DNA of 21,383 nt from a virus, in IMG/VR virus record IMGVR_UViG_3300006737_000272, positions 1 through 21,383 of that record. One strand, written 5' to 3'. Position numbers and translations under genes: made by a program. Positions within the stretch are counted from its first letter, which is position 1. Every line of letters starts with the position of its first letter. Below are positions 1,448 through 16,995 of the stretch, piece after piece. Below the pieces are notes generated by a model. The model did not search any database. It was given only the letters and a program-made list of their open reading frames with translations, and was not told the DNA's origin.

Positions 1448-1702
1448 ATGAAAAAAGAAATAAAAACCAAAATGCGTAAGTGGATCCAAGATCCAAAAAA
1501 CGAGGATGACCTATTTCAAATTATAGACTTTTGGGAGGATTTGGGAACTACACCAATGAATGCCTGGTGTAAATTATTAGACCCCCAATTGGAGAATGGG
1601 TCGATTACTCATGCGGAACAGGATACATACGCACATTTTATAGCTAGAATTGCCAAGGACACATTATTAAAAAGAGGATATACATGGGGGGAATATATAT
1701 GA
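1448..1702 (+). CDS. Hypothetical protein (84 aa)
   Basis: This is an 84-residue, probably helical soluble protein. Its N-terminus is charged (MKKEIKTKMRKW). The middle is acidic and aromatic (DDLFQIIDFWEDLG), and it has a single Cys near residue 41. Its start is well set: AAGGAG at 1437-1442 overlaps the dsbA stop codon and lies five bases before the ATG. Its TGA stop overlaps the pseudoazurin ATG (ATGA at 1699-1702), so the two are probably translationally coupled. I do not recognise the family. It lacks metal-binding motifs, a signal peptide or membrane helices that would link it to the copper protein. Confidence 0.8.
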   Translation: MKKEIKTKMRKWIQDPKNEDDLFQIIDFWEDLGTTPMNAWCKLLDPQLENGSITHAEQDTYAHFIARIAKDTLLKRGYTWGEYI

Positions 1703-2115
1703 AATATATTATTACACTATTAGTTTTTTTATTTGTTACACCAACATACGCAACCACTATTGAAATGTTGAACAAAAGAGACGATGGGGCTAAAATGGTT
1801 TACTCACAAGACATCGTGCAAGTTGATCCTGGCACAGTGATTACTTGGGTACCAACAGCAAAAGGTCACAATGTAGAATTTGTTGCTGGGCCAATAGGTG
1901 CAGAATTACCAAAGAAAAGCAAGATGAATGCAGAAACAAGCCACAGTTTTGATATGCCAGGCATATACTACTATGTGTGTACACCACACAAAGCTATGGG
2001 CATGATTGGTTTGGTTGTTGTAGGCAATGATGTCTCTAACAGGGAACAAATTGCAAAAGTAAAAGCAGTAGGAAAATCAAAGAAGAAATTAGCAGAGTTA
2101 CTTGATTCTTTATGA
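1699..2115 (+). CDS. Pseudoazurin-like secreted blue copper protein
   Basis: This 138-residue precursor has a classic signal peptide (MKYIITLLVFLFVTPTYA, cleavage expected after Ala18) and a mature cupredoxin domain of about 120 residues. The four type 1 copper ligands are all visible: His57 in KGHNVEF, then Cys94, His97 and Met102 in CTPHKAMGM. Plastocyanin shares the C-x2-H-x4-M spacing. The KGHNVE motif, the AMGMIGLVVVGND end of the domain and the extra C-terminal helical tail (residues about 115-138) match bacterial pseudoazurin instead. Pseudoazurins are periplasmic one-electron carriers that donate to copper nitrite reductase, N2O reductase or cytochrome c peroxidase. I chose ATG 1699 over ATG 1684 because 1699 gives a clean signal peptide, an ATGA overlap with the upstream stop and a G-rich stretch upstream. 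It lies in a DNA polymerase operon, which suggests expression early in infection. Confidence 0.92.
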   Translation: MKYIITLLVFLFVTPTYATTIEMLNKRDDGAKMVYSQDIVQVDPGTVITWVPTAKGHNVEFVAGPIGAELPKKSKMNAETSHSFDMPGIYYYVCTPHKAMGMIGLVVVGNDVSNREQIAKVKAVGKSKKKLAELLDSL

Positions 2116-5846: not shown

Positions 5847-6584
5847 ATGAAGGATATACTACAAGACATTGTCAAGCACACACATTCATTAGGATTTATT
5901 GATCTAGTTAAGATAGTAGGTGACGACACAAAAACAGAAATGGATGCAATGGCTGAAGACAGATCAGTTGTTGTAAAAGCAGAATTTAATAAACCTGTTG
6001 CAGAAATGAAAGGTACATTTGGAATGCCTAACTTAGGTAAGTTAGACATTATTCTTAAGTGTCCTGAATACAAAGACAAAGCAGATATTACTGTAAACAC
6101 ACAAGATCGTAACGGTGAAACTGTTCCAACAGGATTGCATTTTGAAAATGCAAATAAAGACTTCAAAAATGATTATAGATTTATGAATTCAGAAATAGTA
6201 AATGAAAAATTAAAGTCTGTAAAATTTAGAGGAGTAAATTGGCATGTAACCATGAAGCCAACCATGCCATCTGTACAGCGATTGAACTTTCAAGCACAAG
6301 CCAACTCAGAAGAGAATGTGTTTACTGTGATCACTGAAGATGGAAACTTAAAATTTAAGTTTGGTGATGCTTCATCACATGCTGGTGAATTTGTATTCGA
6401 AACTGGTGTGACCGGTGAGTTGACTAAATCGTGGGCATGGCCTGTGGCACAAGTTACACAAATTTTAAAATTGATAGAAACTGCTGATTGCGAAATGAGT
6501 TTTTCAGATGATGGTGCATTACAGATTGTACTTGATTCAGGCGTTGGCAAATATCAATACATACTTCCTGCACAAAGCAAGTAA
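5847..6584 (+). CDS. 45: Sliding clamp (gp45-like DNA polymerase processivity factor)
   Basis: This 245-residue protein is slightly longer than T4 gp45 (228 aa). T4 gp45 forms a trimeric ring that tethers the polymerase to DNA and also activates late transcription. The sequence is an alternation of short strands with two similar halves, as in clamps. One half covers residues about 1-110 (a helix with HSLGFIDLVKI, then GMPNLGKLDIILKCPEY). The second covers about 130-245, ending in ADCEMSFSDDGALQIVLDSG and YQYILPAQSK. No short signature motif exists for this family, so the call depends on length, strand pattern, the terminal segments and the context beside gp43. It has an excellent start (AAGGAGA, seven bases from the ATG) and its own promoter. 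gp44/gp62 clamp loader genes are not in the window. Confidence 0.8.
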   Translation: MKDILQDIVKHTHSLGFIDLVKIVGDDTKTEMDAMAEDRSVVVKAEFNKPVAEMKGTFGMPNLGKLDIILKCPEYKDKADITVNTQDRNGETVPTGLHFENANKDFKNDYRFMNSEIVNEKLKSVKFRGVNWHVTMKPTMPSVQRLNFQAQANSEENVFTVITEDGNLKFKFGDASSHAGEFVFETGVTGELTKSWAWPVAQVTQILKLIETADCEMSFSDDGALQIVLDSGVGKYQYILPAQSK

Positions 6585-9406: not shown

Positions 9407-9705
9407 GCAATCCAGGACCATACAGATACAAAACAAAAGTAATTGTATCAAGCACAGACACGAGTGACAGAAATTCTTATTATGCTGTTGAAGGTGGTGC
9501 ATTGAACAGTGGATACAAAGACTTTGACGTTGGATGTATAGTGAGCAATGACTTAGGACTAAAAGGTTGGACATATGGTAAAGACTTTTATTTTGAAGAT
9601 GCAGGACTTGATTGTGTTGTGTTTTCATGCGACAAAGCAGAAATACAAAGTTATTTGAATTTAAGATTTAAATGTGTTGACGAATCAGAAAGTTTATATG
9701 TATGA
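9403..9705 (+). CDS. Hypothetical protein with TTG start (100 aa)
   Basis: This is a 100-residue soluble protein with strand-like stretches. RYKTKVIVSSTDTSDRNSYY near the N-terminus is followed by a DFDVGCIVSNDLGLKGWTYG segment and a C-terminal DCVVFSCDKAEIQSYLNLRF part. The frame contains no internal Met or GTG start near its beginning. The only sensible start is TTG at 9403, which overlaps the QueD-like stop (TTGA), a coupled start with a rare initiation codon. Its stop overlaps the GMP reductase ATG. I do not recognise the family. It is held in a tight overlapping series with queD-like and guaC genes. Confidence 0.7.
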   Translation: MSNPGPYRYKTKVIVSSTDTSDRNSYYAVEGGALNSGYKDFDVGCIVSNDLGLKGWTYGKDFYFEDAGLDCVVFSCDKAEIQSYLNLRFKCVDESESLYV

Positions 9706-10754
9706 GAATAAAATCTGAAATAAAATTAAATTTTGACGATGTGCTGTTGCAACCCAAAAGATCAACATTGACATCACGTGCTGATGTTAAAATGACACGA
9801 ACATTTAATTTTATTAACTCTGGTAAGCAATTAGAATTTTGTCCTATATTTGCAAGTAATATGGATGGCGTAGGAACATTTTCTATGGCAAAAGTTTTAC
9901 AGGAATACAAAATGATGACTGTGATCACAAAGTCAACCACAATTGATCAATGGAAACAAGCGGCAGGCACTGGTCTTAGATTACAGTCTGTTTCTGTGTG
10001 TACTGGCACAAATGTGATGTGGGATCCAGATGCTCCTGATTACAACACTATGACGCAAGTGTTAGACAGTTTTCCAGATGTAAAATTTATTACTGTTGAC
10101 GTTGCCAATGCATATCACCAAAACTTTATTGACTTTGTGAAACGAATACGTGATGAGTATCCAACCAAAATAATAATTGCAGGAAATGTTGTTTCGCCTG
10201 AGATGACAGAAGAACTGATTTTGAATGGTGCAGACATTGTTAAAATAGGAATTGGTCCTGGATCTGTATGTACAACTAGAACAATGACAGGTGTTGGTGT
10301 ACCGCAGTTTTCAGCAATACTTGAATGTTCAGATGCGGCAAATGGTGTTGATGGACATATCATGGCAGACGGCGGTTGTGTGTTTCCAGGAGATATCGCA
10401 AAAGCATTAGGTGGCGGGGCTCATATGGTTATGATAGGCGGCATGCTGGCAGGACACGATGAATCAGAACAAAAAATAGTAGATGGACAAGTAGAATTTT
10501 ATGGCATGAGTTCAGATAGAGCAAGAGAAGTGCATGGAAAAAGAAAAGATGGTTATCGTGGCAATGAAGGAAGATTGATTACATTACCATACAGAGGACC
10601 AGTCAAAGAAACAGTGGAAGATATACTTGGCGGTGTGAGATCTTCTGCAACATATATTGGAGCAAGAAGGTTGAAAGATATGCCAAAATGTGCTACCTTT
10701 GTAAAGACACACAATGTAATAAACAGAGTTTATGAACAATACACAGTAAAATGA
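9702..10754 (+). CDS. guaC: GMP reductase (GuaC)
   Basis: This 350-residue protein follows E. coli GuaC (347 aa) along its whole length. The N-terminus reads LNFDDVLLQPKRSTLTSRAD, followed by NMDGVGTFSMA and VDVANAYHQNF. The phosphate-binding and catalytic loop IGIGPGSVCTTR has the catalytic cysteine Cys190 (E. coli Cys186). Then come MADGGCVFPGDIAKALGGGA, GGMLAGHDES, FYGMSSDRA and the C-terminal LPYRGPVKETVEDILGGVRS. It lacks the CBS domains of IMP dehydrogenase. GuaC reduces GMP to IMP with NADPH and releases ammonia. A phage copy is unusual. It sits in the overlapping series that starts with the clamp and dpdA and runs on to a glycosyltransferase, with folE and a purine phosphoribosyltransferase close behind. 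The start is ATG overlapping the upstream stop. Confidence 0.95.
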   Translation: MRIKSEIKLNFDDVLLQPKRSTLTSRADVKMTRTFNFINSGKQLEFCPIFASNMDGVGTFSMAKVLQEYKMMTVITKSTTIDQWKQAAGTGLRLQSVSVCTGTNVMWDPDAPDYNTMTQVLDSFPDVKFITVDVANAYHQNFIDFVKRIRDEYPTKIIIAGNVVSPEMTEELILNGADIVKIGIGPGSVCTTRTMTGVGVPQFSAILECSDAANGVDGHIMADGGCVFPGDIAKALGGGAHMVMIGGMLAGHDESEQKIVDGQVEFYGMSSDRAREVHGKRKDGYRGNEGRLITLPYRGPVKETVEDILGGVRSSATYIGARRLKDMPKCATFVKTHNVINRVYEQYTVK

Positions 10755-11803
10755 TTTTTATAGTAGACATAGAAGCAGTTGAAACAAGATACACAGCACA
10801 ATGGAAAAAGTATTTGCCTAAACAATTAGGTAGACACACAAATCAATCTGTGATGACCATATCAGGTGGCGATACTCCACAAGCAACTACTCCAGGAGCA
10901 TTCTTAAATTTTGGAGGCACCAATGTGTACAAATCCAAGCAATTAGAAAAAATTGGCCAAATGTTTTGTGACGGTGAAGTGAAAGATGGAGATTATTTTT
11001 TGTACACTGATGCATGGAATCCTACTGTGATCCAACTGCGATATATGGCAGAACTGTTGAATGTAAAAATTAAAATAGGCGGTATGTGGCACGCCGGTTC
11101 ATATGATCCAGCAGACTTTTTAGGCAGAATGATTGGTGATAAACCATGGGTGCGAAATGCAGAACGTTCTATGTATGATTGTTATGATGATAACTTCTTT
11201 GCCACAGACTTTCATATCAATATGTTTGCTGATACATTGAACTTGAATAAAGACAAAATCACAAGAACTGGTTGGCCGATGGAATACATGGACCAAGAAT
11301 TAGAAGCATTTAAAGATATGCCTAAAAAAGATATCATACTGTTTCCGCACAGAATTGCTCCTGAAAAACAGCCAGACATTTTTTATGATTTGAAAGATTC
11401 ATTGCCACAATATGAGTTTGTGGTAGCACAAGAAAAACCAAGATCCAAAGATGACTATCATAATTTGTTGGCAGAATCAAAATTATTATTCTCGGCCAAC
11501 TTGCAGGAAACATTAGGAATATCCGGCTTTGAAGGTTTATTGTTGGATGTTATTCCGTTAGTTCCAGACAGACTAAGTTACACAGAGATGTTTGACAATT
11601 TCAAATATCCTGCAGAATGGACTCTCGATATGAAAAAATATATGGAACACAAAGACAAAATTCTAAATACAATTTGTAATTACATGGACAATTATGATTC
11701 ATTCAGAATAAAGATGCAACATCAAAAACAATCACTCATGAAAGAATTTTTCCATGGAAAGAACTTGTATCAAAAAATTAATGACAGTATACTAAAATTA
11801 TAA
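10751..11803 (+). CDS. GT-B glycosyltransferase (GT4-like)
   Basis: This 350-residue protein has the C-terminal nucleotide-sugar domain of GT-B glycosyltransferases. ILFPHRIAPEKQPDIFYDL (about residues 195-215) is the usual inter-domain strand with the conserved Arg and Lys. LQETLGISGFEGLLL carries the EX7E motif, with Glu253 and Glu261. A PLVPDRLSYTEMF loop follows. The N-terminal half (about 1-180) is less conserved and includes DGDYFLYTDAWNP and GGMWHAGSYDP. It has no membrane helix, so it is cytoplasmic. The acceptor cannot be read from the sequence: DNA bases, a nucleotide, or a surface polymer are possible. Its ATG overlaps the guaC stop, so it is probably co-translated with the purine genes. 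Confidence 0.85.
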   Translation: MIFIVDIEAVETRYTAQWKKYLPKQLGRHTNQSVMTISGGDTPQATTPGAFLNFGGTNVYKSKQLEKIGQMFCDGEVKDGDYFLYTDAWNPTVIQLRYMAELLNVKIKIGGMWHAGSYDPADFLGRMIGDKPWVRNAERSMYDCYDDNFFATDFHINMFADTLNLNKDKITRTGWPMEYMDQELEAFKDMPKKDIILFPHRIAPEKQPDIFYDLKDSLPQYEFVVAQEKPRSKDDYHNLLAESKLLFSANLQETLGISGFEGLLLDVIPLVPDRLSYTEMFDNFKYPAEWTLDMKKYMEHKDKILNTICNYMDNYDSFRIKMQHQKQSLMKEFFHGKNLYQKINDSILKL

Positions 11804-11825
11804 CATCAAAAAAAAGGAACATAGT

Positions 11826-12512
11826 ATGACACAGACTTCCAACATAATCAAACAAAGAGTTAAAGATGCAGGTGCGAGGGCATGGGCCAATGACAACATC
11901 AGCGAATTTATCGAAGAGGGAGAAAAACAAAAACTTATAGACGAGGCTATCCCGGCATTTGAAAAAGTGTTGCAGAGCCTAGTGATAGACACAGAAACTG
12001 ATCCCAACAGCATGGACACCGCTAAAAGAATGGCCAAAATGTACATCAATGAGATCATGTCTGGTCGATACGACACAATGCCGAACCCTAGTGCATTTCC
12101 AAATTACATTGAAGGAGGCTATGAGGGTATGTTGGTTGTGAGAAGTGAACTTACAAGTTTGTGTTCGCACCATCACCAAACGGTCAAGGGTGTTGCATAC
12201 ATTGGTATCATCGCAGGACCTAAACTATTAGGATTGAGCAAATACACAAGGATCGCACAATGGTGTGCGAAAAGAGGCACACTACAAGAAGACCTGAATG
12301 TGATGATCGCAAACCAGATTGAGGAAACAACAGGAAGTAAAGACGTAGGAGTATATATTCAGGCCACACACGGCTGTTGTGAAAACAGAGGTATCAAGGC
12401 ACACAGCAGTTTGACACAGACGACTGTATTACGTGGAGCATTCAAGAATGATCCAGCAACTAAAAAAGAGTTTATGGACAATGTGAAACTACAACAACAG
12501 TTCGCGTGTTAA
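11826..12512 (+). CDS. folE: GTP cyclohydrolase I (FolE)
   Basis: This 228-residue protein has the complete GTP cyclohydrolase I zinc site. Cys113, His115 and His116 lie in SLCSHHH (E. coli Cys110, His112, His113), and Cys184 lies in ATHGCCENRG (E. coli Cys181). LLGLSKYTRIAQWCAKR matches the substrate-binding segment GxSKxxRxxxxxxxR. The enzyme converts GTP to 7,8-dihydroneopterin triphosphate and formate, the first step to both folate and 7-deazaguanines. With a QueD-like protein and QueE in the same window, the 7-deazaguanine route is the likelier use. An AAAAAGGAA stretch lies about 8 bases before the ATG. It follows the glycosyltransferase after 22 nt and precedes the phosphoribosyltransferase by 3 nt. 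Confidence 0.96.
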   Translation: MTQTSNIIKQRVKDAGARAWANDNISEFIEEGEKQKLIDEAIPAFEKVLQSLVIDTETDPNSMDTAKRMAKMYINEIMSGRYDTMPNPSAFPNYIEGGYEGMLVVRSELTSLCSHHHQTVKGVAYIGIIAGPKLLGLSKYTRIAQWCAKRGTLQEDLNVMIANQIEETTGSKDVGVYIQATHGCCENRGIKAHSSLTQTTVLRGAFKNDPATKKEFMDNVKLQQQFAC

Positions 12513-12515
12513 TTA

Positions 12516-12971
12516 ATGCCTAAGAAAAATAATATATCATGGCAAGACATAGACAAACTTACCAAGACACTAATACGCAAAATAGGTAAAACAAAATACG
12601 ATTCTATACTTGGCATCACTAGAGGAGGATTAATTCCAGCGGTGAAGATAAGCCATGCACTTGGTATTCCATTACAGCCTGTAAACTATCACACACGTGA
12701 TTTTGGTGGCATGGGGCATGAGTCAATGGGGATAGATTTGATGGATGAAATGTTGTGTGATCCTCCCAAAAAATACTTGGCAATCGATGACATCAATGAT
12801 TCCGGACTTACAATAAACGAACTATCAACAGAATTCAGAAACTGGAATATGAATGTTGAATGGGCGGTGCTACATGATAATAAACCATCTGTGGCGACAG
12901 TAAAATATTTTGCTAAAAAGATTGATAAGAATAAAGATCCTGCTTGGATAGTTTATCCGTGGGAAAAATAA
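12516..12971 (+). CDS. Xanthine-guanine type purine phosphoribosyltransferase
   Basis: This 151-residue protein is the size of E. coli Gpt (152 aa). It has the type I phosphoribosyltransferase layout. A WQDIDKLTKTLIRKI helix and YDSILGITRGGLIPAV (about residues 28-43) match the Gpt start pattern. The PRPP loop YLAIDDINDSGLT lies at residues 87-99, with Asp91 and Asp92. DPAWIVYPWEK forms the end of the protein; a Trp in this region stacks on the purine in the Gpt/Hpt group. The reaction would be guanine, xanthine or hypoxanthine plus PRPP giving the nucleotide. Which base is preferred cannot be read from the sequence. It starts 3 nt after folE. Its last 19 bases overlap, tail to tail, the end of the minus-strand amidinotransferase gene. 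Confidence 0.88.
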   Translation: MPKKNNISWQDIDKLTKTLIRKIGKTKYDSILGITRGGLIPAVKISHALGIPLQPVNYHTRDFGGMGHESMGIDLMDEMLCDPPKKYLAIDDINDSGLTINELSTEFRNWNMNVEWAVLHDNKPSVATVKYFAKKIDKNKDPAWIVYPWEK

Positions 12972-14020
12972 TCTTCACACTCACCTTCACGATATAAATC
13001 CAAAGTCATACAATGCACTCCGCCATCCCAAAAGTGTCTGTGTCTGAATGGTGCAATAATAGGTTGTATTTTATGACTCTCAAAATATTGGAATAACTCT
13101 TTGTTGTATGAATTCACTACAACTGTTTCTTGATTTATCATATGCACGTTGACATCGAACACAGTTTCTTCCACATACCCTACCCACTCAGTTAACCATG
13201 TCTCAACAAAATCTGCAAACTCATCATTTTTTTCTTCACCTGGCACCCACCATCTGCCTTTGTTTTTGTCTTTGATGTCTAACCATCCTTCTACTTTATC
13301 AAGATTAGAATCTGCTATGTAATGCACATCCCAGCCTGGAAATGTTTCATCATAATTCTGTATATCATTTAAAGAAATCAATACACCTGGCTTGCAAGGA
13401 TGGAAACAACAATCATTGTGTCCACCTATTTCTAATTGATACACTTTGATTTGCGGATAGTACTCGTTGAGAATACGTTTGAATTTTTCATTGTATTCTG
13501 AATCATAGTTGCCTGCATCTGTGTCTAGGTATAACCTGTTGCCTATCAAAGTTTGATGACCTCCATGTAGTCCTTTGAATCCATGATCTACAGGAATAAT
13601 ACATTGTTCAATAGGATCTTCCATTACATTAAACAATGATTTCATCATGTTACGATCACCTATCAAGTTTACAAACATGTGATCGCCTATTACTACTTGA
13701 CAATCTCTAGGCATGATAGGTGGTCTTGGTATCAATGATTTTGGTTTCCAAGCCTTGTGTTCAAATGCACCTGCATCATTTAGATAGTCTTCTATTGTCT
13801 CAGACTCATCTATTAATGTCCGAGTAACTTGAACATTTTGATCTTTGTATAATTTTTCTATTCTATCTATATCTTCGTTTGTTTCAATACAGATTTTTTG
13901 TAATGATTCTCGTAACTTTTGGTTTTTAACTGGCTCAAAAAATTTTTCAGAATAACAGGACCCAAGCATGATTGATTTCACAGGATCCCATGGAGACCAT
14001 CTTTTAAATTGGCGTAACAT
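12953..14020 (-). CDS. Amidinotransferase-family protein, divergent copy (355 aa)
   Basis: This is the only convincing minus-strand gene in the window. The 355-residue product has the pentein amidinotransferase fold signatures. The catalytic cysteine Cys337 lies in WDGGVHCMTLDL, matching the GGGFHCWTCD site of arginine:glycine amidinotransferase. The His/Asp pair lies in GGHNDCCFHPCKPG, matching the HxDA...GPG segment. Where the family has a FDAAxxxRxGxD segment, this protein has LHGGHQTLIGNRLYLD (residues about 150-166), so one acidic active-site residue is replaced. The protein may act on a different amine or as a hydrolase such as a deiminase. It is convergent with the phosphoribosyltransferase (19-bp overlap) and divergent from a second amidinotransferase 23 nt away, which suggests insertion as an accessory unit. 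Confidence 0.82.
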   Translation of the reverse strand: MLRQFKRWSPWDPVKSIMLGSCYSEKFFEPVKNQKLRESLQKICIETNEDIDRIEKLYKDQNVQVTRTLIDESETIEDYLNDAGAFEHKAWKPKSLIPRPPIMPRDCQVVIGDHMFVNLIGDRNMMKSLFNVMEDPIEQCIIPVDHGFKGLHGGHQTLIGNRLYLDTDAGNYDSEYNEKFKRILNEYYPQIKVYQLEIGGHNDCCFHPCKPGVLISLNDIQNYDETFPGWDVHYIADSNLDKVEGWLDIKDKNKGRWWVPGEEKNDEFADFVETWLTEWVGYVEETVFDVNVHMINQETVVVNSYNKELFQYFESHKIQPIIAPFRHRHFWDGGVHCMTLDLYREGECEDYFSHG

Positions 14021-14043: not shown

Positions 14044-15024
14044 ATGAATGAATGGGGTAAAGTTAAAAAGGTTATTGTTGGCACTGCCACGAGTGCGAGA
14101 TATTTGCCTGATGAATTAGGTGTAAGGCACATCAATTATGCTGATCGATCATTACAAGATTCTATTCCTGCTGGAGCATATTCACAAACAATTATAGATG
14201 AAGCAAATGAAGATTTGGAATCATTAGCAAAGATTTACAAAGACTTTGGAACTGAAGTATCCAGGCCTGAACCAGCAGAAGTAAATCATTATTTGTATTG
14301 CCCACGTGATAATATTTTAACCATTGGTGAAAAAATAATAGCATCACCTATGTCCATGAACTGTAGAAAAGATGAATACAAATATATGTGCAAAGTTACA
14401 GATGATCTCACTGCAACACAATTCATCCAAAAAGATTATGAAGACGGTTGTATTATGAACAAAAACAAATTGGCTACTTTGAATTTTACTCCCATGTGGG
14501 ATGCCGCTAATGTGCTGAGAGCAGGCAGAGATATTTTGTATCTACATTCTAATACTGGTAACTATGCAGGAGCAGAACAATTACAAAAATTACTAGGTCC
14601 AAATTTTAATGTTCATATTATTTCAGATGTGTATTCCTATTCTCATTTAGACAGTACCATTGCTTTGTTAAAACCTGGCACGGCACTAATAAATCCTAGC
14701 AGGATTAGAAGTAAAGATGTTCTGCCTTACGGTATGCGTAACTGGGATCTAATAGAATGTCCGGAACCTATAGAAATGAATTATGCAGGCACTGAAGCAA
14801 TGATGAGTCAATGGACTGGCATGAATTGTGTTAGTCTTGATGAGGACACTGTGGTTGTACAATCCACGCAAACCAATCTGATCAATGTGTTAGAAACAAA
14901 AGGATTCACAGTGATACCTGTGCATATGAGACATCAGAGATCTTTGAGTGGCGGTCCACATTGTTGTACTGTTGAACTAGAACGTGATTATGAATTGGAG
15001 TACACTTTTGATAACAAAAATTAA
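14044..15024 (+). CDS. Glycine / inosamine-phosphate type amidinotransferase
   Basis: This 326-residue protein aligns by eye with arginine:glycine amidinotransferase and streptomycin-pathway StrB1. PMWDAANVLRAGRDILYL has Asp153 at the family's FDAA position. NYAGAEQLQKLLGPNFNVHI follows, then YSHLDSTIALLKPG with His201 and Asp203, then AMMSQWTGMNCVSLDEDTVV, and SGGPHCCTVELER with the catalytic Cys307. All three catalytic positions are present. These enzymes move the amidino group of L-arginine to an amine, giving a guanidino product plus ornithine. The acceptor is unknown here. The start lies in an ATGA repeat (ATG at 14040, 14044, 14048 and 14052); only 14044 opens the long frame. The following oxygenase-like gene overlaps its end. 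Confidence 0.92.
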   Translation: MNEWGKVKKVIVGTATSARYLPDELGVRHINYADRSLQDSIPAGAYSQTIIDEANEDLESLAKIYKDFGTEVSRPEPAEVNHYLYCPRDNILTIGEKIIASPMSMNCRKDEYKYMCKVTDDLTATQFIQKDYEDGCIMNKNKLATLNFTPMWDAANVLRAGRDILYLHSNTGNYAGAEQLQKLLGPNFNVHIISDVYSYSHLDSTIALLKPGTALINPSRIRSKDVLPYGMRNWDLIECPEPIEMNYAGTEAMMSQWTGMNCVSLDEDTVVVQSTQTNLINVLETKGFTVIPVHMRHQRSLSGGPHCCTVELERDYELEYTFDNKN

Positions 15025-16098: not shown

Positions 16099-16995
16099 AT
16101 GTCTGACAAAAAGTATTATTATTCCGAGATCTTCCATTCTATCCAAGGTGAAGGACACTATACTGGTGTGCCTACTGCATGGATAAGATTTTTCCTTTGT
16201 AATTTACAATGCAATGGATTTGGACAAAAAGATCCAACAAATCCAGAAACATATGAACTGCCATATGAAGACTTCGATCCAATGACTGTAAACAGAGTTG
16301 AAGATTTGCCTGTGTGGAAACATGGTTGTGATTCTTCCTACACATGGGCAAAAAAATTCAAACACTTGATGGGGCATGAAACTCCAGAAGTGTTAGCAGA
16401 CAAAATTGTAGATATTCTCCGCAACGACTCCAATCCTGACGGATTGTTTAGACATCCTGTGTCAGGTCAGACACAACATCTTTGTTTTACTGGCGGAGAG
16501 CCATTGATGTTGATGACACAGGATGCCATAGTCGGTATTATGAAATCTTTACAAGAACGTGAAAATACTCCAAGTTCAATTACATTCGAAACTAATGGCA
16601 CACAAAAGTTGAAAGACACAACCAAAGAGTTTTTGGCAAACATGGAACAAGAAGTATTCTTTTCAGTCAGTCCAAAACTGTGGTCTGTAGCAGGTGAGAA
16701 GGCGGCAAAAGCAATAAAACCTGAAACAGTTGCAGAATACAAAGAAACAAGGGATCTTGGACAACTTAAATTTGTGGTTGGACACAGAGATAGAGAGTGG
16801 GAAGAACTTGATTCTGTGGTCAAACAATTCAGAGATGTTGGTGTTGATTGGCCTGTTTGGGTTATGCCTGTTGGAGCAAGAGAAGAAGAGCAGAGCATGT
16901 CAGCAGGAGAAGTTGCCAAAAAAGCGTTTGAACGTGGTTTTAATGTAGCGGCCAGAGTTCATGTATATCTGTTTGGTAATGCAATTGGTACTTGA
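16099..16995 (+). CDS. queE: 7-carboxy-7-deazaguanine synthase (QueE), radical SAM
   Basis: This 298-residue radical SAM enzyme has the QueE start motif FHSIQGEGHYTGVPTAWIRF. Cluster cysteines Cys34 and Cys38 lie in LCNLQCNGF. The usual third cysteine three residues later is missing. The likely replacement is Cys77 in HGCDSSYTW, which matches the WCDT segment after an insertion of about 37 residues. FTGGEPLML (about 130-138) is the SAM-binding GGEP motif. TFETNGTQ and FFSVSPKLW follow, the latter matching the SPK motif. QueE rearranges 6-carboxytetrahydropterin to 7-carboxy-7-deazaguanine, the step after QueD. It has its own consensus promoter and appears to be translated from a leaderless message. 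Its stop codon overlaps the next promoter. Confidence 0.93.
   Translation: MSDKKYYYSEIFHSIQGEGHYTGVPTAWIRFFLCNLQCNGFGQKDPTNPETYELPYEDFDPMTVNRVEDLPVWKHGCDSSYTWAKKFKHLMGHETPEVLADKIVDILRNDSNPDGLFRHPVSGQTQHLCFTGGEPLMLMTQDAIVGIMKSLQERENTPSSITFETNGTQKLKDTTKEFLANMEQEVFFSVSPKLWSVAGEKAAKAIKPETVAEYKETRDLGQLKFVVGHRDREWEELDSVVKQFRDVGVDWPVWVMPVGAREEEQSMSAGEVAKKAFERGFNVAARVHVYLFGNAIGT

Follow-up and report, generated by a model that had tools for sequence, protein, structure and literature searches.

A stretch of viral DNA of 21,383 bases (positions 1 to 21,383 of IMG/VR record IMGVR_UViG_3300006737_000272, hereafter the window) carries an intact gene that very likely encodes a pseudoazurin, one of the small blue copper proteins that ferry electrons outside the inner membrane. 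Relatives of this gene are widespread among viral contigs, often next to a gene for a DoxX-family membrane protein. We consider it probable that the phage protein serves as a periplasmic electron carrier that sustains host electron flow, as part of a DoxX module in the wider phage family.

Identification of a Phage Pseudoazurin

The gene (1699-2115, plus strand) is an intact open frame encoding 138 aa plus stop. An in-frame ATG is also present at 1684, and three related viral genes (in L002, L003, and L004) begin at the equivalent of 1699. As originally predicted, the product starts with a probable signal peptide, of Sec type when read by eye, which takes up the first 18 residues (1699-1752) and is followed, from 1753 on, by a mature domain of 120 aa. 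The N termini of its relatives are hydrophobic and varied in sequence, and the window protein is presumably secreted. When the protein is aligned with the pseudoazurin 1bqk, His57 (1867-1869) and the Cys94, His97, and Met102 residues of a Cys-x2-His-x4-Met loop (1978-2004) superpose on His40, Cys78, His81, and Met86, which we take to be the copper ligands of that protein. The window protein has, in other words, the full His-Cys-His-Met set of a type 1 site with its loop spacing, and the four ligands are unchanged in 20 phage sequences and in all 90 aligned phage and bacterial sequences, which bears out the earlier claim of four type 1 ligands. The protein would be expected to load copper accordingly. 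Simple counting over the 10 pairs among five clade sequences, some of them near synonymous saturation, gives dN/dS values of 0.09-0.18, the mark of purifying selection. Since many homologues keep the ligands and dN/dS is in this range, a chance origin of the open frame is excluded.

As for the family, the TIGR02375 pseudoazurin profile gives the window protein 96 bits and is the best by about 48, ahead of the halocyanin (47 bits), amicyanin (45), and plastocyanin (35) profiles, while the Pfam Copper-bind profile gives 62.9 bits. The score misses the NCBIfam equivalog cut-off of 109.85, which is a threshold for naming and no biochemical definition, and which is also missed by 11 of the 13 genomes behind the bacterial relatives. 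In a sequence search of the PDB, the top matches are pseudoazurins (1bqk, 1.9e-22), the solved structures sharing 34-42% identity with the window protein. Modeled with AF2 (mean pLDDT 98.1), the mature domain ends in helices 97-101 and 108-118, the C-terminal helical extension of the pseudoazurin fold that is missing from plastocyanin. VIA-align superposes this model on Sinorhizobium meliloti pseudoazurin 3tu6 with a Z of 22.1 and an rmsd of 0.9 Å, and the first 26 entries listed are all pseudoazurins, over which 114-118 residues are aligned, versus 84-89 for the listed plastocyanins, the best of which reaches a Z of 12.8. Among the 50 entries listed by a structure search of BFVD there is no pseudoazurin, and the best of them is a blue copper protein from Fadolivirus (TM 0.51).

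In a tree of 122 rows and 124 columns, rooted on three cyanophage plastocyanins and including no amicyanin or azurin, phage and bacterial pseudoazurins split from the plastocyanins with a support of 100/100. The bootstrap was unsettled, the program gave warnings about the small number of columns and the long branches, and no starred branch smaller than half of the rows contains the window. The window protein clusters with L002, L162, and L004 (94/93), with L023 joining next (94/86), and the adjoining bacterial group (89/69, weak) is made up of Rhizobiales, Rhodobiaceae, and PS1. Phage and bacterial copies are mixed, starred branches forcing at least four changes of label between the two, and gene transfer is therefore frequent.

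No grouping with the cyanophage plastocyanins (PetE) was found for the window protein in the profile comparison, a search of the INPHARED phage records, the tree, or the fold, and a plastocyanin identity is ruled out by the profile, the tree, and the predicted fold. The original prediction of a pseudoazurin and not a plastocyanin has thus held up in sequence, predicted fold, and phylogeny, and the two checks it proposed agree: the model matches crystal pseudoazurins over plastocyanins, and the tree keeps the protein apart from those of cyanophages. It is very likely that the gene is real and that its family is pseudoazurin.

With the bacterial pseudoazurins of S. meliloti (3tu6) and Achromobacter (1bqk), the window protein has in common the four ligands, the loop spacing, a signal peptide by eye, and a predicted fold that agrees along the entire mature chain, C-terminal helices included; besides its modest identity to the solved proteins, it differs from them in being encoded by a phage, within a DNA replication operon. 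Cyanophage PetE (phrog_515), which serves cyanobacterial photosynthesis, is likewise a type 1 copper carrier found on phages, and in two of the three regions examined it adjoins PTOX or ferredoxin genes. However, it forms its own clade (100/100) and is 27.6-34.6% identical to phage pseudoazurins in the listed rows.

Position in a Phage Replication Region

The neighborhood of the gene, entirely on the plus strand, is that of a phage. Upstream lies a small regulator-like protein (1187-1438; phrog_12534/phrog_639), 46% identical to the protein found at the same place in the Sinorhizobium jumbo phage Phosso. Downstream come DUF6552 (2112-2336; PF20189), a 74-aa protein that is hydrophobic by eye, and an 877-aa DNA polymerase of jumbo-phage type (2333-4966), for which the earlier label gp43 was right in the sense of a family-B phage polymerase. 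The closest relatives of the polymerase are those of alphaproteobacterial jumbo phages, Phosso (47.9%) and the Agrobacterium phage Atu_ph07 (44.7%), and a sliding clamp (5847-6584), 35% identical to the annotated Phosso clamp, marks the phage replication region. The order regulator, polymerase, clamp, glycosyltransferase, and FolE is common to the window and Phosso, at 35-61% identity. Unlike the window, Phosso has no pseudoazurin or DUF6552 between regulator and polymerase, and has instead a 95-aa hypothetical protein with no match in the window.

The order regulator, pseudoazurin, DUF6552, polymerase is found in six contigs, the window and five others (L001-L004 and L162) that are 82.9-99.9% identical to it at the DNA level, in alignments spanning pseudoazurin into the polymerase. 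A chimera or contamination, already doubted in the original prediction, is ruled out by these five contigs, one of which (L001) is almost identical to the window. ATGA overlaps are confirmed at 1699, 2112, and 2333, and the claim that they couple pseudoazurin to the genes on both sides holds for the window, but it extends to the whole clade downstream only. The pseudoazurin-DUF6552 and DUF6552-polymerase overlaps are kept in all six contigs, whereas the 84-aa ORF that overlaps pseudoazurin upstream (1448-1702) is, among the fetched loci, confined to the window and near-identical L001. It is an insertion outside the conserved module, DNA similarity to L002, L003, L004, and L162 stopping at 1453 and restarting at 1695-1699. 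Of 50 long records examined, 10 carry a T4-type capsid gene (gp23), seven of these with pseudoazurin and three with cytochrome c; the capsid gene is absent from the window and from the L002 and L003 records, all of which are fragments; a tRNA search of the 21,383-base window found none. As a host-type metabolic gene that is under selection in a phage genome, the window pseudoazurin is a candidate auxiliary metabolic gene, which would be expressed and beneficial during infection.

Elsewhere in the window, a 234-aa protein (304-1008) matches phrog_3704, "ferredoxin," with 162 bits and has no NCBIfam or Pfam match, and the label may be wrong. Genes at 9702-12971 and 16099-16995 (IMPDH/GMP reductase, FolE, phosphoribosyltransferase, and a short match to a QueE-like protein of Phosso) suggest purine or deazapurine chemistry, as judged from their matches. 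Two ORFs adjoin on opposite strands (12956-14020, minus; 14044-15024, plus), the second with a below-threshold match to arginine deiminase (21.9 of 22.8 bits).

Distribution in Viruses and Bacteria

The gene is no single oddity, since a profile scan of IMG/VR found at least 322 viral stretches that encode a pseudoazurin relative; phage pseudoazurin is thus widespread among viral contigs. Fetching the best 80 of these, together with the best 80 of 261 stretches from a single-sequence scan, yielded 95 distinct loci, and the proposal that the gene be sought in related phage contigs is thereby answered, both within and beyond the window clade. In INPHARED (50,697 records), tblastn with the window protein gave no match at E≤1e-3; at E≤10 it gave 182 records of Synechococcus phages, cyanophages and, once, Cylindrospermopsis, with 20 listed rows annotated as plastocyanin, and a second phage pseudoazurin gave 156 cyanophage records at E≤1. 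The original prediction knew of no described phage pseudoazurin, and none turned up in INPHARED or in the accessible open-licence literature, where no PMC paper was found on pseudoazurin, DoxX, or cupredoxin as a viral auxiliary metabolic gene.

In bacterial genome contigs, 213 stretches encode a relative, and the 80 best were fetched; by record title, the bacterial relatives are mostly marine Alphaproteobacteria. In the family to which a Pelagibacter genome belongs, 20 of 79 members have a relative, as do 53 of 289 members of the class at E≤1e-3, 21 of them above the cut-off. The pseudoazurin-bearing phage group is probably marine, a label that rests on the record titles of the bacterial relatives, and its host is probably a marine alphaproteobacterium. 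Where a 335-kb contig binned as Neomarinimicrobiota was compared with a viral contig (loci L087 and L023), the gene products of the two are 99-100% identical; the binned contig is either a large phage placed in the wrong bin or a prophage.

Linkage to DoxX and Exchange with Cytochrome c

Clustering of the genes flanking pseudoazurin revealed one recurrent neighbor, a DoxX-family membrane protein. Of the 96 viral pseudoazurin loci, the DoxX profile detects it in 57, on the same strand in every one and directly adjacent (overlapping or within 64 nt) in 45, and it is still found in 27 of 48 loci after removal of near-copies. A reverse search with DoxX returned 113 phage loci, the best 80 of which include 53 with pseudoazurin and 21 without either carrier in the fetched flank, several of these beside an NrdA-like gene. 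The divergence of pseudoazurin is correlated with that of DoxX (Mantel r 0.64, 0 of 5,000 permutations, 42 dereplicated pairs), as expected if both travel together, with shared phage ancestry contributing; this test and the co-occurrence counts take related phages as independent.

In the remaining six of the best 80 DoxX loci, the gene overlapping DoxX encodes a cytochrome c of class I that is secreted and carries a CxxCH heme motif, and none of these loci has pseudoazurin too. Searching with this cytochrome c gave 21 phage loci, 13 with DoxX and none with pseudoazurin. Of the 13, 12 were measured as overlapping and in one the contig end cuts the cytochrome gene; the eight loci without DoxX include some short ones. 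Pseudoazurin can thus be replaced by a secreted cytochrome c in the DoxX module. At E≤0.01, neither the phage cytochrome c nor the phage DoxX has a match in INPHARED.

DoxX-family proteins are mostly uncharacterized, and thiosulfate:quinone chemistry is established for DoxD, according to the accessible parts of PMC6704655. The phage partner proteins exceed the Pfam cut-off for DoxX (PF07681; 29.6 and 32.9 bits), which places them in the family but does not make them DoxD, the thiosulfate:quinone oxidoreductase subunit. A fold search with the predicted phage DoxX structure finds nothing in the PDB at E≤0.001. A quinone role is conceivable for phage DoxX, which might act on quinone or thiol electrons.

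No DoxX lies near pseudoazurin in 39 of the 96 viral loci, and of the 38 such records other than the window three have one elsewhere. In the window clade (the window itself and the L001-L004 and L162 records, all fragments of at most 91 kb) no DoxX was found, and DUF6552 is present in its place: in L015, whose polymerase is 59% identical, DoxX sits between pseudoazurin and polymerase, the slot of DUF6552 in the window. For the window, the module reading therefore rests on analogy with L015.

In the fetched flanks of 116 bacterial genome loci, a phage-type DoxX turned up once, in L100, which is probably a phage contig inside a Muricauda bin. PF07681 was found in 9 of 24 pseudoazurin-bearing genomes, and two seemingly bacterial loci, L338 (genome G005) and L339 (G008), encode a DoxX 64-67% identical to that of phages, with about 8.6 and 7.8 kb between it and pseudoazurin. 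The phage pair may therefore derive from such neighborhoods.

Three further observations concern these loci. In L257, L263, L266, L270, and L273-L275, phage DoxX adjoins, by eye, a gene like that of the ribonucleotide reductase large subunit, with no carrier, and in most of these loci a gene for a small membrane protein lies upstream. The cluster 15 protein, by eye secreted and porin-like, is encoded at or near pseudoazurin in L031-L035, L037, L044, L175, and L176, not in L036; the one member scanned has no Pfam match, and these are possibly further phage-encoded envelope proteins. In a Pelagibacter genome (G009, contig 1, 608526-612827), a DoxX match is found about 2.7 kb from COX1.

Bacterial Counterparts and the Electron Acceptor

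DUF6552 adjoins pseudoazurin in the six clade contigs and in one bacterial locus, L096, which belongs to the bacterial tree group near the window and whose next gene encodes a DUF6552 58% identical to that of the window. The window pair therefore probably came from an L096-like bacterium, or was transferred in the reverse direction. Both families are matched in 6 of 289 class members (G007, G021, G120, G167, G254, and G265, the match in G167 being weak and broken), and are adjacent only in G007, in which COX1 was found and SoxY and NirK were not.

The partner enzyme was sought in 36 pseudoazurin-bearing genomes (12 of the 13 behind the bacterial relatives, a further 12 from which fetched loci came, and 12 of the 19 other Pelagibacteraceae positives). 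A COX1-family oxidase is present in 30 of them, the other six being possibly incomplete, and SoxY in 13. By cluster membership, with Pfam run on one member per cluster, SoxYZ genes lie near pseudoazurin in 9 of 80 bacterial loci and cytochrome c oxidase subunit genes in 7. Because COX1 occurs in most of these genomes and oxidase genes beside pseudoazurin in those seven loci, cytochrome c oxidase is the likely acceptor, as far as gene content can tell. In one Pelagibacteraceae contig (G310 contig 69, 8-2056), a COX1 fragment and pseudoazurin are about 1.3 kb apart.

Proposed Role and Alternatives

We propose that a jumbo-type myovirus, with a marine alphaproteobacterium as its probable host, encodes a genuine pseudoazurin that would be exported to the host periplasm and take up copper as a type 1 site. 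As a one-electron carrier, it would keep periplasmic electrons flowing to the terminal oxidase during infection, and in some hosts sulfur oxidation might also feed electrons to it. In the wider phage family, pseudoazurin and the DoxX-type four-helix membrane protein would form a two-gene module in which cytochrome c can substitute, with DUF6552 occupying the DoxX slot in the window clade. That pseudoazurin acts as an electron carrier in the infected host is likely, and aerobic respiration or sulfur-linked electron flow is its most likely role on genomic grounds. For the DoxX module as a respiratory device, the odds are about even.

The classical partners of pseudoazurin are copper nitrite reductase, N2O reductase, and peroxidases, and the phage protein could feed one of these, such that denitrification or peroxide defense continues in the infected cell. 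The accessible part of PMC12423496 states a role in denitrification for pseudoazurin, and some bacterial copies, L093 and L338 among them, have genes nearby that look peroxiredoxin-like by eye. We nevertheless consider this unlikely: NirK is above cut-off in none of the 36 genomes, with weak matches in five, one of them a partial match of 102 bits in G341, and the seven annotated neighbor proteins scanned in bacteria include Sox and cytochrome c oxidase components and no nir gene. NirK is thus rejected as the partner in these genomes, and the nitrite-reductase role of the original prediction finds no support in the bacterial relatives, where COX1 is the rule.

The full set of copper ligands would also suit a protein that buffers or chaperones copper, shielding the infected cell or provisioning oxidases with the metal, and carries no electrons, an option that the original prediction had also raised. 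It is quite unlikely, because two unrelated one-electron carriers alternate beside one membrane protein, which speaks for electron transfer and not copper buffering; the entire pseudoazurin fold is, moreover, retained in the predicted model. Since the copper and heme carriers have this property in common, one-electron periplasmic transfer would be the simplest reading. Finally, the intermixing of phage and bacterial copies, with its frequent transfer, is what one would see for a passenger gained by recombination without benefit, and host DNA might have been misassembled into a phage contig. Five further contigs of the same order, the constraint on the protein sequence, and the hundreds of viral stretches with a relative make either of these very improbable.

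Genes of respiratory complexes have been reported in viruses before. The accessible parts of PMC3474794 describe viral samples from the Indian Ocean with reads that belong to cbb3-type cytochrome oxidase and to NADH dehydrogenase, and viral respiratory genes as such are therefore not new; those of PMC6563490 describe a gene of the plastocyanin/azurin/halocyanin family in integrated elements of Thaumarchaeota. These cases concern other enzymes or archaeal elements, and pseudoazurin and DoxX go unmentioned in the parts accessible; phage pseudoazurin with its DoxX module would be the new addition.

That phages carry pseudoazurin, often beside a membrane-protein gene, suggests that they support host respiration during infection. 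We would give even chances to the broader idea that phages of heterotrophs, probably marine alphaproteobacterial ones, use DoxX or DUF6552 with an exchangeable pseudoazurin or cytochrome c as an electron route to the host oxidase. The linkage offers a handle on the widespread DoxX family, whose partners here are two interchangeable soluble electron carriers. Viral control of photosynthetic electron transport is well known in cyanophages, and the module, if our reading is right, would be the respiratory counterpart of their genes for it. If respiratory carriers are also brought along by phages of marine Alphaproteobacteria, SAR11-like ones among them, infected heterotrophs could go on making ATP by a virus-encoded route, which would bear on carbon and sulfur cycling.
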